Shown here piece by piece: positions 19,826 through 38,328 of a stretch of DNA of 43,850 bases. The stretch is from Treponema sp. GTDB lineage: Bacteria > Spirochaetota > Spirochaetia > Treponematales > Breznakiellaceae. The stretch is from assembly GCA_031255285.1 (NCBI GenBank), contig JAIRSU010000127.1, positions 1 to 43,850 on the forward strand, written 5' to 3'. Numbering within the stretch: the first letter of the stretch is position 1; every line of letters begins with the position of its first letter. Under the pieces are notes generated by a model. It did no database searches. It saw only the letters and a program-made list of their open reading frames with translations, and was not told the origin of the DNA. The translations under genes were made by a program, and so were the position numbers.

Positions 19826-22186
19826 TTATACTCCTTCTCTATTATATTCCCGCGCTTGAACTGGCGGGCGTCGAGTCTCCGCGTCTATCTGCTCAAACCG
19901 CTTATAGATTCTCCCTACGTTATCGTCCGCGTACCACTTCTTTAGCTCGTCCAGAGATGTATTCACCCTGCCCACGTTATCGTCCACATACCACTTCTTT
20001 AATTCGTTTAGCTGCTGTTCAAAACTATCGAGCCGCTGGTTCAGAGCTTCCACAGAGCGTAAAAACACACGCGGCGTCAGCGAAGCTATTACCACAAACG
20101 GGAAATGACGGCGTCTCTCTTCCTGCCGCGCTTTCTCAATACAGCTCCGCCAAAAATTCTGGTATCGTAAGCCTAATTCTTTGACATAAACGCTCAACTT
20201 GAATTTTTTGAATAGTCTATACACTTCCATCGCGTACTGAGTACTTTCAGGTTCAGGACAACTGTCTATACAAGAAAATACGAAGTCAAGGCAATAAGTC
20301 GCGAATTCTTTTGACGCGGGAAGATGCTCCCCCTGGCTGATATGCAAAAGCGCTTTAAGAATATGTATCTGCTCCGCGCACCGCGAAACAGGGTCCCGCG
20401 CAATGGAATGCATGAGCGAATCTGGGCGGAAATGGCGGTAACGGTATAGTTTGTCGGAAATGACCGCCACGCCGTGCGCCTTGGGCATAGCTTCAAGCGT
20501 AAACAGCGCGTCCTCGCCGTACTTATATCTCTCATCAAAGCAGATTTTGTTCTTCGTCAAAAATTCCCGCTTGAAACAACACCGCCAGATATAAACTTTA
20601 AGATACGGTTTTATAAACAATGTCCGCGCGTCAATCGAGGGGAAATACTCGTCAGGCGTAGTCAAAACTTGATAATGCCAATCGCTTGCCCGCGGCTCGT
20701 CGGGAAACGGCGTAGTCCCGAATACAACAATATCTGGATTCTCGCGCCTTGCTATAGTTTTCTTCAAAACTTCCGCTGTGGTCTCGCATATCCAATCGTC
20801 AGAGTCGACATATATAATATATCGGCCCCGGGCGGCGGCCGCCCCCGCGTTGCGGGCGGCGGCCAGGCCTGCGTTTTCTTGATTGATAACGACGAAGCGT
20901 TTATCAGCGGCTGCATATTCCTCCAGAATCGACAAAGAATGGTCCGTAGAGCCGTCGTTTACACAGATAATCTCAATATCTTCAAACGTCTGAAACATGA
21001 CGCTTTCAAGACAAGAACGCAGATATTTCTCCACGTTATAGACCGGTATGATAACGGAAAAAAACGGACGCGGGGATTCGTCCTGCTCTCGCTCGCTCGC
21101 AATAAGGCTTAAATTACCCAACGGGGTTCTCGGCTCTGCGTATTTGAACCTCGCCCCTTCTTGCTCGTAACGCTCGATGAAACGCCATGTATGATACTCA
21201 AGTGGATCGTCCGCTATTCGCTTAATGTCTCGATATTTCCACCATTCTTTCTCAAAAGGCAGGTTCTCAATCCCGACTTCGTCTATAATCCGCTCGAAAC
21301 GCGGCGAAATTCGCTTCAAAAACGGATAACGAGTCTTGATTCCAAGCTTCTCATAATCCCATATACACGAGTCGTAGAACGCCGCGCTTTCAATTGCTGT
21401 AAGTTTCAATTTCCGTCTGTTCATCCGCAGGAAACGTTCTATTTCATCATATTCATCAAGAACGCAATACACCTTCTTGTCAAGGTTATTGACGGAGGAG
21501 TCTGCGTTGTCCTGGCGGTAATGGAGAAAGGCGTCGTATAGGCAGACCACACGGTCGACTGTAGCGTAGACCTTGAACGCGAAGGACGTATCTTGAAACG
21601 AGGCGCCCGGCGTCTCCAGAAAGGTTATCTTGTTATCAATCAGAAACTCGCGTTTGTAAATCGCCGACCATATCGACGGCTTCCGGTGAAAGAAAGAATC
21701 GCCTTCATATGTCCGCGGCGTTATAACTTTCCCGTCCTCTTCCCGAGTGAAGTACTTATGCAGTTTGTTCCGCTCCGGGTCGCTCCAATAAAACCAGAAG
21801 TTCGACTTGGCCACGTCGACTTCATTTTCCTCCGCCGCTACGTAGAGGGTCTCGAACATCTCTGCTTCTATGAAATCGTCAGCCTCTACGATGCCGATAT
21901 ACTCGCCGCAGGCCGCCGCTATCCCTACATTCATGGTCTGCCCATAGCCGGCGTTAGGCTTGTCTATCACCCTTATGCGATTGTCTTTCGCTGCATATTC
22001 AGTAATAATATCCATACAGCCGTCTGTGGACCCGTCATTCACGATAATAATTTGAATATCTCGTAGAGTCTGGCTTACCACACTGTCAAGACAGTGTCTC
22101 AAGTACTTTTCAGCGTTATAGACGGGGATTATAATTGATATTTTAGGTGTCCGCTCTTTTGATATATCAAATTCTTTCATAGCCAT
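19826..22186 (-). CDS. Tandem-domain GT2 glycosyltransferase with C-terminal duplicated segment
   Basis: Two GT-A domains: KISIIIPVYNAEKYLRHCLDSVVSQTLRDIQIIIVNDGSTD and FFSVIIPVYNVEKYLRSCLESVMFQTFEDIEIICVNDGSTD; C-terminal LKKWYVDDNVGRV/LKKWYADDNVGRI. Confidence 0.92.
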   Translation of the reverse strand: MAMKEFDISKERTPKISIIIPVYNAEKYLRHCLDSVVSQTLRDIQIIIVNDGSTDGCMDIITEYAAKDNRIRVIDKPNAGYGQTMNVGIAAACGEYIGIVEADDFIEAEMFETLYVAAEENEVDVAKSNFWFYWSDPERNKLHKYFTREEDGKVITPRTYEGDSFFHRKPSIWSAIYKREFLIDNKITFLETPGASFQDTSFAFKVYATVDRVVCLYDAFLHYRQDNADSSVNNLDKKVYCVLDEYDEIERFLRMNRRKLKLTAIESAAFYDSCIWDYEKLGIKTRYPFLKRISPRFERIIDEVGIENLPFEKEWWKYRDIKRIADDPLEYHTWRFIERYEQEGARFKYAEPRTPLGNLSLIASEREQDESPRPFFSVIIPVYNVEKYLRSCLESVMFQTFEDIEIICVNDGSTDHSLSILEEYAAADKRFVVINQENAGLAAARNAGAAAARGRYIIYVDSDDWICETTAEVLKKTIARRENPDIVVFGTTPFPDEPRASDWHYQVLTTPDEYFPSIDARTLFIKPYLKVYIWRCCFKREFLTKNKICFDERYKYGEDALFTLEAMPKAHGVAVISDKLYRYRHFRPDSLMHSIARDPVSRCAEQIHILKALLHISQGEHLPASKEFATYCLDFVFSCIDSCPEPESTQYAMEVYRLFKKFKLSVYVKELGLRYQNFWRSCIEKARQEERRRHFPFVVIASLTPRVFLRSVEALNQRLDSFEQQLNELKKWYVDDNVGRVNTSLDELKKWYADDNVGRIYKRFEQIDAETRRPPVQAREYNREGV

Positions 22187-22193
22187 TTCACTT

Positions 22194-22243
22194 TCTCCTA
22201 CTCTCCCGTGTTTTTTTTCGTAAAAGTGCGCCTTTTACGAAAA
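22194..22243 (+). repeat. Left arm (IR-L) of perfect 50-bp inverted repeat
   Basis: TCTCCTACTCTCCCGTGTTTTTTTTCGTAAAAGTGCGCCTTTTACGAAAA; exact reverse complement of 24103-24152. Confidence 0.97.
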
Positions 22244-22253
22244 AAGTGAATGT

Positions 22254-22282
22254 AGATTACTATTTTTCCCCATATATGTCAA
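22254..22282 (-). promoter_or_regulatory. Predicted sigma70-type promoter facing the left operon, just inside IR-L
   Basis: Minus strand TTGACA (22282-22277), 17-nt spacer, TAATCT (22259-22254). Resembles the tRNA-Arg promoter in this window (TTGACG-17-TTTAAT). Confidence 0.6.
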
Positions 22283-22764
22283 GTGGTTTTAGAGGCTTTT
22301 CTTTTCAAATATGTTTCCTGCTAGTCAGATAATTGAAACACAGGCGGGAAATACTGTATATTTCTCCTGCGTCCTACCAATACAGTTGCGGCGATGTAAA
22401 AGTATGATGGCACAAGATTTTATAGAGCAGAGTAATTACATCCGTCGGAGTGATTTTGACGGTGGACGCCTTGGACCTGACGGCAAAGGCGCGGCGGAAG
22501 CCAGCGCAACGAGGACATGAATAGGCGCGAGTACCTGAAAATGCTTTATAACCCTGAACCTACCCATCTGCATTTCCCATGACAACAATCGTTATGGTTC
22601 ATTATATTTCCGAGCCGCTTCTAATTATCAAATGACTTCATCTTCGTAATTCGTTAATTCTTTTCCTACAGTAATAGTAATCTGCTTCATCCGCCATCGC
22701 TTCTGAACGAGTTTGCCAAATCGTAAAAATTTAAGCCGTCAAATTTATGGTCAGGAGGTTCCCT

Positions 22765-23922
22765 ATGAGAAAGGGTTTAAATATCTATAAAAGAAAAGAT
22801 GGAAGATACGAAGGCAGGTATCGGATTATCGACGAAGCGAGCGGTGAATCAAGATATCGATCGATGTACGGCAGAACGTTTTCCGAGTTACGGGAACGGT
22901 TGATAGAAATAAAGGGGCGGCTCAAACAAGAGCATCCTCATTCTGGTATTCCGTCTCTTTTGACGATGAGAGACGTTTCCAATTCGTGGTTAGAATCTTT
23001 GAGTTCTTCTATTAAGAAATCGTCTTTTTGGAACTATAAACGCAAGCTCGATAACCATTTGATGCCTGAGTTCGGCGATTGTAAATATACAGACTTGTCT
23101 ATTGAAAGACTTGAAGGCTTTGTTTTGAAAAAGCTTCTTCGCGGTCGTCTATCAGATGGCTCGGCGTTATCCGCAGGCTATGTAGGAGATATAGTGGTTA
23201 TGCTCAAAAGCATCGGTAAATTCGCCATGAAACAATACGGTTTTCCTAACATCATGTCTCTTATAGTCCAGCCGAAAGTCAGAAAAAACGACGTGGTTTT
23301 ACTCTCCAGAGCGGAAACAGCGCGGCTTGATTACGAGATTAAAAACAGATTGAAAGAAGACTCCTATAAAGAATACTCTATCAAATTAAGCGTATTCTTG
23401 AGTTTATATACAGGTATCCGTCTGGGTGAGCTGTGCGCCTTGAAATGGGAAGATATTGACCTCGGCGAGAGAATCATCCATGTAAGAAGCAGTTTACAAC
23501 GTATCCGCCGCTCGGATTCACAGACCGAAACTCTGCTCAAAAAGACGTCTTTGACCGAGCTAGTCATTACAACGCCTAAAACAGAATCCTCAAACCGCGA
23601 TATACCCATTCCAGACGCGCTCTTCCCGGTTCTCTTCTCCGCCTATTCTTCTGGTTTCGTGCTGAACGGACTCCTCTATCCTGTGGAACCGCGTCTTTTA
23701 CAGTACCGTTTCAAGAGCTTTCTCAAATCTATGCAACTACCGCCTATACGGTTTCATGCACTCCGACATATGTTCGCCACCAACTTCCTTCATCAACGCA
23801 GCAGTGACTATAAAACCTTGTCAGAGATTCTGGGACACTCAAACGTTTCTACCACCATGAGGAAATACGTACACAGTTCAGATGAAAGAAAAGCCGAATG
23901 TATGAAGCATTTTAATTTCTAA
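22765..23922 (+). CDS. Tyrosine recombinase / phage-type integrase
   Basis: RKGLNIYKRKDGRYEGRYRI N-terminal arm-binding-like domain; TGIRLGELCALKWEDIDL, RFHALRHMFATNFLHQRSSDYKTLSEILGHSNVSTTMRKYVH catalytic motifs (R..HxxR..H..Y). SD AGGAGG upstream of ATG 22765. Confidence 0.95.
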   Translation: MRKGLNIYKRKDGRYEGRYRIIDEASGESRYRSMYGRTFSELRERLIEIKGRLKQEHPHSGIPSLLTMRDVSNSWLESLSSSIKKSSFWNYKRKLDNHLMPEFGDCKYTDLSIERLEGFVLKKLLRGRLSDGSALSAGYVGDIVVMLKSIGKFAMKQYGFPNIMSLIVQPKVRKNDVVLLSRAETARLDYEIKNRLKEDSYKEYSIKLSVFLSLYTGIRLGELCALKWEDIDLGERIIHVRSSLQRIRRSDSQTETLLKKTSLTELVITTPKTESSNRDIPIPDALFPVLFSAYSSGFVLNGLLYPVEPRLLQYRFKSFLKSMQLPPIRFHALRHMFATNFLHQRSSDYKTLSEILGHSNVSTTMRKYVHSSDERKAECMKHFNF

Positions 23923-23974: not shown

Positions 23975-24051
23975 CCATGACGGCTTCACCATTCACTTTT
24001 AGCAAAGCTTTTTATTTCAGACGATTTGAATGAAAGAATAAGCCGTCATGG
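23975..24051. repeat. Long inverted repeat downstream of the recombinase (possible terminator or recombinase accessory site)
   Basis: CCATGACGGCTT (23975-23986) and AAGCCGTCATGG (24040-24051), perfect 12-bp arms, with additional inner CATTCA/TGAATG pairing. Confidence 0.7.
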
Positions 24052-24102
24052 GAGTGGTCAGAAGGATGAGTAAGTATAGATGTAGGAAAGAAGAGAGAGG
24101 GC

Positions 24103-24152
24103 TTTTCGTAAAAGGCGCACTTTTACGAAAAAAAACACGGGAGAGTAGGAGA
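24103..24152 (-). repeat. Right arm (IR-R) of perfect 50-bp inverted repeat
   Basis: TTTTCGTAAAAGGCGCACTTTTACGAAAAAAAACACGGGAGAGTAGGAGA; ends in TAGGAG SD and the A of the rfbF ATG. Confidence 0.97.
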
Positions 24153-24931
24153 TGAAAGTAGCGATATTGGCGGGGGGGTTAGGAACGCGGCTGTCTGAAG
24201 AGACAGGGCTGCGCCCCAAGCCGATGGTTGAAATCGGCGGCAGACCTATACTCTGGCACATCATGAAGACTTACGCCTATTGGGGCTTCAACGACTTCGT
24301 CGTGCTCACAGGCTATCTGTCGCATATAATAAAGGATTTCTTCATCAATTATTACACGCAGTACTCGGATGTGTTCGTGGATTTGGGGGAGAATCGGATA
24401 GAATTGTTGCAACATCGCACCGAGCCGTGGCGGATAACGTTGCTGTATACGGGGACGGAGACGCAGACGGGAGGGCGGTTGTTGCGGGCTCGGGACACGC
24501 TTGATGGCGAGCGGTTCATGCTGACCTATGGGGACGGTGTGAGCGATGTGGATATACCTGCACTGTTGAAGCGGCATGAGACTTCTGGGAGAGCGGCCAC
24601 GCTGACCGCAGTGAAGCCCAGTGGGAAGTTCGGGATGCTGTCTCTGGAAACGGACGGAAAGATAAGCCGCTTCCAAGAAAAGCCCGACGGAGATGGAGGC
24701 TGGATAAACGGCGGATTCTTTGTGATGGAGCCTGAAATATTCGCCTATTTGCGAGACGGGGATACGACGATTTTAGAGCGTGAACCGTTAGAACGGCTTG
24801 CGCGAGAGGGACAGTTGAGCGCGTATAAACATCAAGGGTTCTGGCGGTCTATGGACACACTGAAAGACAAGAACGATCTGACGGCGCTGTGGCGTACAGG
24901 CGATGCGCCGTGGGCGCTATGGACGAGGTAG
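24152..24931 (+). CDS. rfbF: Glucose-1-phosphate cytidylyltransferase
   Basis: MKVAILAGGLGTRLSEETGLRPKPMVEIGGRPILWHIMKTYAYWGFNDFVVLTGYLSHIIKDFF. Confidence 0.95.
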   Translation: MKVAILAGGLGTRLSEETGLRPKPMVEIGGRPILWHIMKTYAYWGFNDFVVLTGYLSHIIKDFFINYYTQYSDVFVDLGENRIELLQHRTEPWRITLLYTGTETQTGGRLLRARDTLDGERFMLTYGDGVSDVDIPALLKRHETSGRAATLTAVKPSGKFGMLSLETDGKISRFQEKPDGDGGWINGGFFVMEPEIFAYLRDGDTTILEREPLERLAREGQLSAYKHQGFWRSMDTLKDKNDLTALWRTGDAPWALWTR

Positions 24932-26901: not shown

Positions 26902-27480
26902 ATGACCCGTGCATTTTCATTTGAGAAGACGCTGTTTGAGGGTGTTTTTCTGATAAAGCCGTTTGTTTCTGACGACGAACGCGGCTATTTCGTCAAAGAT
27001 TATTCCAAAGAATTGTTCGCAGATAACGGTATAACGCACGACCTGCAAGAAGTATTCTACACGTCGTCCTATAAGGGGGTAATACGAGCGATTCATTTTC
27101 AACGGGAAAAAGAACAGGCGAAATTGGTACGATGCGTAAAAGGGAGCGTGTTCGATGTGGTTGTGGATTTACGCCCGGAGTCTCGGACGCTAGGCCGATG
27201 GGAAGGCTTCTATCTCAATGAAGAGAACAAGAACGAGGTATTGATACCTGCGCATTTTGGGCATGGGTATCTCGTGTTGGAAGACTCTATTGTGTCCTAC
27301 AAATGTGCAGAGAGATTTTATGGAGAGTTCGACGACGGGATCAAATGGGACGACCCTGATATAAACGTTCAATGGCCCCTGGAAAGAGTAGGCGCTCTTA
27401 TCCTGTCAGAGAAAGATAAGAACTTACAAACCTTCGCGGAATGGAAGACGAAACGCTTGGAGGGTGTGGATGGCGTATAG
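26902..27480 (+). CDS. rfbC: RfbC/RmlC-like nucleotide-4-keto-6-deoxysugar 3,5-epimerase
   Basis: FEGVFLIKPFVSDDERGYFVKDYSKELF...HDLQEVFYTSSYKGVIRAIHFQREKEQAKLVRCVKGSVFDVVVDLRPESRTLGRWEGFYLNEENKNEVLIPAHFGHGYLVLED. Confidence 0.92.
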   Translation: MTRAFSFEKTLFEGVFLIKPFVSDDERGYFVKDYSKELFADNGITHDLQEVFYTSSYKGVIRAIHFQREKEQAKLVRCVKGSVFDVVVDLRPESRTLGRWEGFYLNEENKNEVLIPAHFGHGYLVLEDSIVSYKCAERFYGEFDDGIKWDDPDINVQWPLERVGALILSEKDKNLQTFAEWKTKRLEGVDGV

Positions 27481-27733
27481 CATAGAATACTTCGATGTTA
27501 TTGTCATAGGGTGCGGATTTTGCGGGAGTACGGTAGCGCGACGGCAGGCGGAACAAGGTTACACGCGGATAACAGAATATAAGAAACTGCCGCCCCAAGA
27601 CGTTCCGGGCGTAACGACAGTCGCCTATGAGTATCCCCAGTCGTCAGGGGGAGGCGATGAGCCGTATTACCCGATACTCACAATGGATGCCGCGGTGAAG
27701 CGGGCGCTCGCAGTGGAGAATACTATCCCATGA
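27470..27733 (+). pseudogene. glf: UDP-galactopyranose mutase remnant with large internal in-frame deletion
   Basis: N-terminal FAD-binding FDVIVIGCGFCGSTVARRQAEQG joined directly to TRITEYKKLPPQDVPGVTTVAYEYPQSSGGGDEPYYPI, normally found ~250 residues further on in Glf. Confidence 0.75.
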
Positions 27734-36165: not shown

Positions 36166-38328
36166 ATGAATAATTTTGCAATAGAAAATACCGGGCTAAA
36201 AGAAGCTTGTAGACGGATAAAACACTTCTCTGAAAATTGTGAGACGTCCCTTGACCTTTCCGATTTGGGCTTGGACCAGCTACCAGAAGACCTATTTGAA
36301 GATGTGGAAACGGAAACGATGCAGTCTCTTAATATTAGTATGAATAAGCTCGAAGAAATTCCTTCGTTTATCATGACTTTTTCGTCATTGGAGGCTTTGG
36401 ACGCGAGTAGTAACCGACTTAAAAAACTGCCAGATGCCGTTACCACGCTCCTATTTCTCAAGAAACTCAAGATTAATGACAATGACCTTACGGAACTGCC
36501 TGAAAACATAGATAAACTTGCTATGCTAGAGACTCTGGATGTCAGCCGTAATAAGCTCGTAAAACTGCCTGAGTCCGTCAAAAACCTCCGCGCTCTCAAA
36601 AGATTCGATTTTATATTGAATAAACTCGCAGAAGTTCCTAGTTCTGTACGGAAATTCACCACCCATCAAAAGGTCAACATCTTGACTCACATACAGAAAC
36701 TTGCGGTAAGCGCTACAGAAACTGAATTCCCCTTTGGCGATTCCTTTTTAAAAAAGGCAAAATTTCATATCAAGGCGTTGTCGGAATGGTTTCAGCTCTC
36801 TGCCCTGCAATCCGTCGTCTACGCCCAGTTTCTCGTCAGGTTCGAGGATCAATCCATATATCTGCGGGAAATCGCCGCGTCTCTTAATTTGAACAGTCTT
36901 GAAATGCTTCCATTTATGAACGAATTTGACGAACTTGAAAAAAAGAAACTTCTTCTCTGCCGTAGACCGTCTGAAGGTGAACTGGTCACCTATCGTGTTC
37001 CTGGCGAAGTGATAGAGTCTTTGCGTTGTAACAAGCCGTACTTTGCGGAAACTTATAAGAATATATCCAACGATGAATTTTTTGATGTGTTGGACAAGCT
37101 GTTCGACAGACATGGTAACAGTGAAATGTCCTACGAGATGTTTGTAGGAGAGCTGAATGCGCTCATAGATGGCAATATGCAACTCGCTTTTTCTCAAAAA
37201 ATCAGAGAACTTCAGCTTGCGCAGGAAGATCTTGTCTTACTCTTGCGTTTCTGTCAGCGGTTCGTGAGTTGTAATGATGAAAATATTGGCATAAGCGGTG
37301 TAGGTGGAATATTCAATGACTCCACATTCAGAAATATTACCAGAGTCTTGCTTGGTGGTGAGCACGAACTCTTAAAACGAGGCATCATCGAGAAAATAGA
37401 CAGAAACGGAGATGAAGACGACTTCTTTGAGGATAGGGAATATTTCACTTTGACTATGGAAACAAGGAAGAGTCTGTTTACTGATCTGAACCTTAAGCCT
37501 CAGAAACTCGAATGGAAAGGACCTTTCATAGCGCCGTCAGAAATCGCCTCCAAGCAGATGTTCTATAACGAATCTGGAGTCGAGCGCATACGGGAGCTTA
37601 CGTCCATCTTGAGTAAGGACAATTTCAAGGATGTACAGGAAAGGCTTGCCGAAAAAGGCTTGAGAAGCGGGTTCACATGCCTGTTCTCAGGTGCGCCTGG
37701 AACCGGCAAGACAGAAACCGCCTACCAGTTAGCTCGTGAGACCGAGCGTGACCTCTTGTCAGTGAACATCACCGACATCCAGAGCAAGTGGGTTGGGGAG
37801 AGTGAGAAGAATCTTAAAGCGATTTTCGATAAATACCGTACCGCAGTAAGGAAGCGGGAACATACACCCATATTGCTCTTCAACGAGGCGGATGCCATCA
37901 TGCCGCGGCGTTTCGAGCTTGGCTCACAAAGTCGTTCGACGGACCAAATGATGAATAGCCTCCAAAATATTATTCTTGAAGAGCTGGAAAAGCTCCCCGG
38001 CATACTCATAGCGACCACGAATCTATTCCAAAACATGGACAAAGCGTTTGAACGCCGCTTCTTATACAAAATAGAGTTTGAGAAGCCCGATCTTTCGGTA
38101 CGCCAAGCTCTATGGCAAAGTATGGTACCGGAGCTTTCAAAGGATGATGCAAAGACACTCGCGACACGTTTCGACTTTTCAGGCGGACAAATCGAAAACA
38201 TCGCTCGCAAGTCCATCACTGATTACGTGCTTCATGGTAGAACGCCTTCTTTTGAAAGAATATTCTTATTCTGTAAAGAAGAACTCCTATCAAAGCCAAA
38301 CGAAAAGCTTCTTGGCTTTATTGCTTAA
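36166..38328 (+). CDS. Leucine-rich-repeat protein fused to AAA+ ATPase
   Basis: LRRs (LKKLKINDNDLTELPENIDKLAMLETLDVSRNKLVKLPESVKNL...); AAA+ Walker A FSGAPGTGKTETA, Walker B ILLFNEADAI, arginine-finger region FERRF. Confidence 0.93.
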   Translation: MNNFAIENTGLKEACRRIKHFSENCETSLDLSDLGLDQLPEDLFEDVETETMQSLNISMNKLEEIPSFIMTFSSLEALDASSNRLKKLPDAVTTLLFLKKLKINDNDLTELPENIDKLAMLETLDVSRNKLVKLPESVKNLRALKRFDFILNKLAEVPSSVRKFTTHQKVNILTHIQKLAVSATETEFPFGDSFLKKAKFHIKALSEWFQLSALQSVVYAQFLVRFEDQSIYLREIAASLNLNSLEMLPFMNEFDELEKKKLLLCRRPSEGELVTYRVPGEVIESLRCNKPYFAETYKNISNDEFFDVLDKLFDRHGNSEMSYEMFVGELNALIDGNMQLAFSQKIRELQLAQEDLVLLLRFCQRFVSCNDENIGISGVGGIFNDSTFRNITRVLLGGEHELLKRGIIEKIDRNGDEDDFFEDREYFTLTMETRKSLFTDLNLKPQKLEWKGPFIAPSEIASKQMFYNESGVERIRELTSILSKDNFKDVQERLAEKGLRSGFTCLFSGAPGTGKTETAYQLARETERDLLSVNITDIQSKWVGESEKNLKAIFDKYRTAVRKREHTPILLFNEADAIMPRRFELGSQSRSTDQMMNSLQNIILEELEKLPGILIATTNLFQNMDKAFERRFLYKIEFEKPDLSVRQALWQSMVPELSKDDAKTLATRFDFSGGQIENIARKSITDYVLHGRTPSFERIFLFCKEELLSKPNEKLLGFIA

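Follow-up and report, generated by a model that had tools for sequence, protein, structure and literature searches.

The window analysed here, a 43,850-nt stretch of a Treponema sp. contig (JAIRSU010000127.1), contains a perfect 50-bp inverted repeat, whose left copy (22194-22243) and right copy (24103-24152; 100% complementary to the left) are separated by 1859 nt. Between them, a tyrosine recombinase gene on the + strand (22747-23922, 391 aa as listed) is the only one clearly recognizable; judging from homology, translation probably starts at the ATG at 22765, which gives 385 aa. Two divergent surface-polysaccharide operons flank the repeats. The left operon begins with a double GT2 glycosyltransferase gene on the - strand (19826-22186), with its start 8 bp from the repeat, and the right operon begins with a glucose-1-phosphate cytidylyltransferase gene on the + strand (24152-24931; TIGR02623 above cut-off), whose start codon lies at the repeat end, and also encodes CDP-glucose 4,6-dehydratase. 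Both operons start no more than 30 bp from the repeats, leaving no space for promoters of their own.

The recombinase carries PF00589 (E 1e-21, above cut-off) and PF14659, and is divided into arm-binding, core-binding and catalytic domains. All of the catalytic residues (R225, K278, H337, R340, H364 and Y374) are present, and this R-K-H-R-H-Y set was invariant in 27 relatives. The N-terminal domain of the predicted fold has the order beta-beta-beta-alpha, that is, the N-terminal arm-binding domain of Tn916/lambda-type integrases; the best fold matches of the model were Tn1549 Int and lambda Int, with Tn1549 Int on DNA (6EMZ) as the top PDB entry.

Each 50-bp repeat ends on its inner side in the 29-mer TTTTCGTAAAA-N7-TTTTACGAAAA, which occurs twice in the window, at 22215-22243 (+) and 24103-24131 (-), with zero mismatches, against a chance expectation of none in 100 dinucleotide shuffles. 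The first-pass annotation had described two perfect inverted 11-bp arms around an asymmetric 7-nt spacer in both repeats, and exactly this was found; the span that it gave, 22212-22245, does mark the dyad but corresponds to a slightly longer palindrome of the left copy. On the + strand, the spacer reads GTGCGCC at the left copy (22226-22232) and GGCGCAC at the right copy (24114-24120), so that the right site carries GTGCGCC on the - strand. By base pairing alone the dyad would be 12-5-12 (14-5-14 for the left copy), as the outer G and C of the spacer pair too; sequence comparison with relatives supports the 11-7-11 division instead. Core sites of tyrosine recombinases are characterized by inverted arms of ~11-13 bp and by an overlap of 6-8 bp whose sequence is the same in the two partners, and we accordingly designate the two 29-mers as predicted core recombination sites. 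Screening the 2.15-Mb MAG (79% complete) for the pattern, which had been put forward as a way to further switchable loci, returned only the window pair, with no third copy at up to three mismatches.

The outer 21 bp of the repeats (22194-22214 and 24132-24152), which form a leader and include the Shine-Dalgarno sequences of both operons, are also perfect inverted copies. Since they lie beyond the crossover, recombination within the core alone does not explain their identity; one may guess at gene conversion, or at selection for a common leader, as its origin. Elsewhere, about 11 of these bases are common to L024 and none to L023, the two named Treponema MAGs that share the window locus and that we take, from their isolate names, to be termite-gut genomes.

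We compared the locus with 75 relatives of the window recombinase from Treponema and Clostridia (34-80% identity), choosing the site in each by the best arm match, on each side separately and with the spacer ignored. Inverted 29-bp sites of the 11-7-11 type with a 7/7 spacer match were present at 60/75 loci, compared with 0.68% for mixed pairs between loci, although the loci are related to one another, so that this and similar counts are not fully independent. The other 15/75 loci did not pass the strict spacer test, in some cases because no clear site was present. Within the 60 loci, for which a 7/7 spacer was the selection criterion, the flanks of a pair were no more alike than background, and the outer arms were more conserved than the inner arms. 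The Treponema spacers are GTGCGCC (window and L023), GCGCGAC (L024) and GTGATCC (G009, a fourth Treponema whose locus is split over two contigs, both ending inside the cassette), and are equal in both copies each time. One Ruminococcus genome harbors eight cassettes, all bounded by an inverted pair of sites; the spacer is identical within every pair and differs among all eight. Such differences would presumably keep cassettes from recombining with one another.

Natural inversions were observed among the Ruminococcus relatives, in which both orientations are present. Between the R. flavefaciens-like loci L048 and L053, the flanks are swapped (92.6% and 85.7%) and the inner segment is in place (92.7%). 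The outer half-sites, tcgccgcaaat and ttttcgcaaat, switch sides while the inner half-sites stay, which places the crossover within CGCAAATTTATATAAT; the breakpoint interval is 16 bp, spacer included, and neither genome has this core outside that pair. A second inversion separates L159 from L171 and L156. The earlier suggestion that the dyad is a tyrosine recombinase crossover site is supported by the inverted 11-7-11 sites of relatives, by locus-specific spacers identical within each pair and by an inversion breakpoint inside such a site. More distant relatives on Enterococcus plasmids (31-33% identity) likewise carry inverted sites, of a different core sequence, and lie close to SecA2/SecY2 or WxL genes. 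No inversions were seen among closed Enterococcus raffinosus plasmids or among viral contigs.

Just inside the left site lies a predicted sigma-70-type promoter directed outward (22254-22282, - strand), with a -35 element TTGACA at 22277-22282, a 17-nt spacer and a -10 element TAATCT at 22254-22259. A generic promoter scan did not pick it up because its -10 element is weak; it emerged from its conservation and from scores computed across the relatives. The pattern TTGACA-N17-TARTCT is common to L023, L024 and G009, and over the 60 loci the outward promoter score at the left inner end exceeded that of shuffles by a mean of +5.1 bits (p = 3e-11), compared with +0.4 at the right end. The predicted transcription start, at about 22246-22248, is just short of the dyad, and the proposal that the dyad lies at the 5' end of a transcript agrees with this promoter, about 10 nt away. 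A promoter within inverted repeats and aimed at a neighboring gene is the arrangement of an invertible promoter. In the sequenced orientation it faces the left operon; however, no clear terminator was found between the recombinase and the right operon, so the latter may not be fully off.

A further conserved element is a candidate for the arm-type sites of the recombinase. In the window, CCGTCA-N7-GGTCA occurs on the + strand directly upstream of the recombinase ribosome-binding site (22736-22753) and between the recombinase stop and the right core site (24043-24060). CCGTCA was found upstream of the gene in 53/60 regions and downstream in 47/60, where 0.6 and 0.8 were expected (unbiased 6-mer count). 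It often forms part of CCGTCA-N7-NGTCA, and every bipartite match has the orientation of the recombinase gene. The position of this motif on both sides of the gene suggests that it may be bound by the arm-binding domain; since the first copy abuts the ribosome-binding site, the recombinase might in addition regulate itself through it. A third AGCCGTCA at 23978-23985 (-) forms an 81% inverted repeat with the second candidate site.

Collectively, we consider it highly probable that the dyad is the core site of the adjacent recombinase and that the cassette is a self-contained invertible promoter switching the two divergent surface-polysaccharide operons. One recombinase would bind each 11-bp arm and exchange strands across the 7-bp spacer, and the candidate arm-type sites in the segment may serve its N-terminal domain. 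The inverted arrangement of the two site copies means that the intervening 1.86-kb segment would flip, shifting its single strong outward promoter from the left to the right operon and, with it, their expression states. With recombinase and promoter both inside the flipping segment, such a cassette would constitute a reversible phase switch.

Whether the switch still operates in Treponema bears on this reading. The promoter faces the left operon in each of the four Treponema assemblies, no inverted orientation was seen among them, and the inner or outer arms of L023 and L024 are imperfect, as would be expected of a formerly active switch now fixed in one orientation. We regard such fixation as unlikely, however, because the window pair matches perfectly along its 50 bp, the window recombinase is intact and lacks none of the catalytic residues, and both G009 spacers have changed together. 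At E <= 1e-40 the recombinase is encoded in only 3/203 genomes of the family, and a search of the genus for an empty site led to an rfbF relative in G003 in a different context.

The type of the recombinase raises the question of mobility. Arm-binding domains are a mark of mobile-element recombinases (PMC8138268), and the neighbors of the relatives in Ruminococcus and other Clostridia comprise, besides LytTR/GHKL regulators, P-type ATPases, LRR proteins and capsule genes, the relaxase and T4SS genes among which several relatives lie. The sites could accordingly be the attachment ends of an integrated element, used for integration and excision, with inversion being incidental. Yet the paired sites are inverted rather than direct, only the recombinase and promoter clearly lie between them, natural inversions exist, and the conserved outward promoter serves the neighbors, all of which make this explanation very unlikely. 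A phage or plasmid origin of the cassette was also considered and rejected, as only relatives of ~40% identity or lower were found there; the Treponema core pattern had no match in viral contigs.

The leader RNA offers another possible role for the dyad. The first-pass annotation had raised a 5'-UTR hairpin near the Shine-Dalgarno sequence, and the window leader, with its predicted start adjoining the dyad, does fold into a 14-bp hairpin (-15.7 kcal/mol, z -2.8) that leaves the Shine-Dalgarno free, which could stabilize the mRNA or tune translation of whichever operon is transcribed. This part of the proposal holds for the window but not for L023, where the hairpin is lost although the spacer and inner arm are retained. 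Moreover, the two spacers of a pair agree as DNA copies, which no RNA role needs, and the site pair is kept in many relatives whose palindromes are poor. It is therefore highly improbable that the dyad is mainly an RNA element, and the fold is at most a side effect or a secondary role. A serine invertase of the Hin type is ruled out, since the enzyme is a tyrosine recombinase by sequence and fold.

The invertible promoter cassette proposed here combines features of several known systems. Hin is a serine recombinase with a 2-bp overlap and a Fis enhancer. As in the Salmonella H segment with its hix sites, the recombinase gene and an outward promoter lie inside a segment flanked by inverted repeats, and flipping would redirect the promoter; unlike Hin, the window cassette has a tyrosine recombinase, a 7-nt spacer, candidate arm sites and two divergent operons. 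With E. coli FimB/FimE and Clostridioides difficile RecV it shares a tyrosine recombinase and a promoter segment between short inverted repeats. Those enzymes are simple types without an arm-binding domain and are encoded outside the segment, whereas the window recombinase has a predicted arm-binding domain and its gene lies inside. Domain order, arm-binding domain and the best fold match (6EMZ) ally it with the Tn916/Tn1549 integrase family, whose members mobilize conjugative transposons, whereas the window-type inverted sites enclose only the recombinase and relatives show natural inversions. Recombinases occasionally reside within their own invertible segment, as Hin exemplifies (PMC5903667). 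Gut invertons of the PhaseFinder type are likewise invertible promoters near surface-polysaccharide and integrase genes, but their nearby invertase genes are generally outside and not under the inverton promoter (PMC11892184), whereas every cassette of the window family contains its own recombinase.

We found no description of this cassette family in the literature searched, which covered few subscription papers. New here are the conserved outward promoter inside the left site and the bipartite CCGTCA-N7-NGTCA motif on either side of the recombinase. More tentatively, the cassettes may form a widespread undescribed family of autonomous promoter-flipping units, each with an arm-domain integrase, an outward promoter and a 7-nt address of its own. 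Such units would spread as a whole from locus to locus and across phyla, making new genes phase-variable, and their differing addresses would stop cassettes, as many as eight per genome, from cross-reacting. Given the crossover site, the spacer rule and the candidate arm sites, self-contained promoter switches of this kind, which occurs in many gut bacteria, can be found from sequence alone and tested in cultured relatives. The co-varying spacers provide naturally matched combinations of site and enzyme in which to study how cross-reaction is avoided. In uncultured termite-gut spirochetes, the cassette points to phase-variable surface polysaccharide.

Several minor observations were made at these loci. 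In the group comprising L068, L072, L078, L080, L083, L090, L093 and L094, the cassette is followed by a ~240-aa and then a ~430-aa gene, which where scanned encode a LytTR response regulator and a GHKL sensor kinase; these cassettes possibly switch a signaling system on conjugative elements. L133, on the R. albus 7 plasmid pRUMAL02, has two closely spaced site-specific integrase genes of this kind that run in opposite directions, and the first of them has inverted 20-bp sites to itself. Tandem repeats of ~21-24 nt lie between the left core site and the recombinase in two Treponema cassettes (L023, 7600-7900; L116, 1-200), and the G009 contig ends in this interval. In the window, the UDP-galactopyranose mutase frame at 27464-27733 encodes only 89 aa, compared with 388-397 aa in L023 and L024, and is apparently a remnant. 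The gene at 36166-38328 combines N-terminal leucine-rich repeats with a C-terminal AAA ATPase domain and is followed by a rhomboid protease gene.
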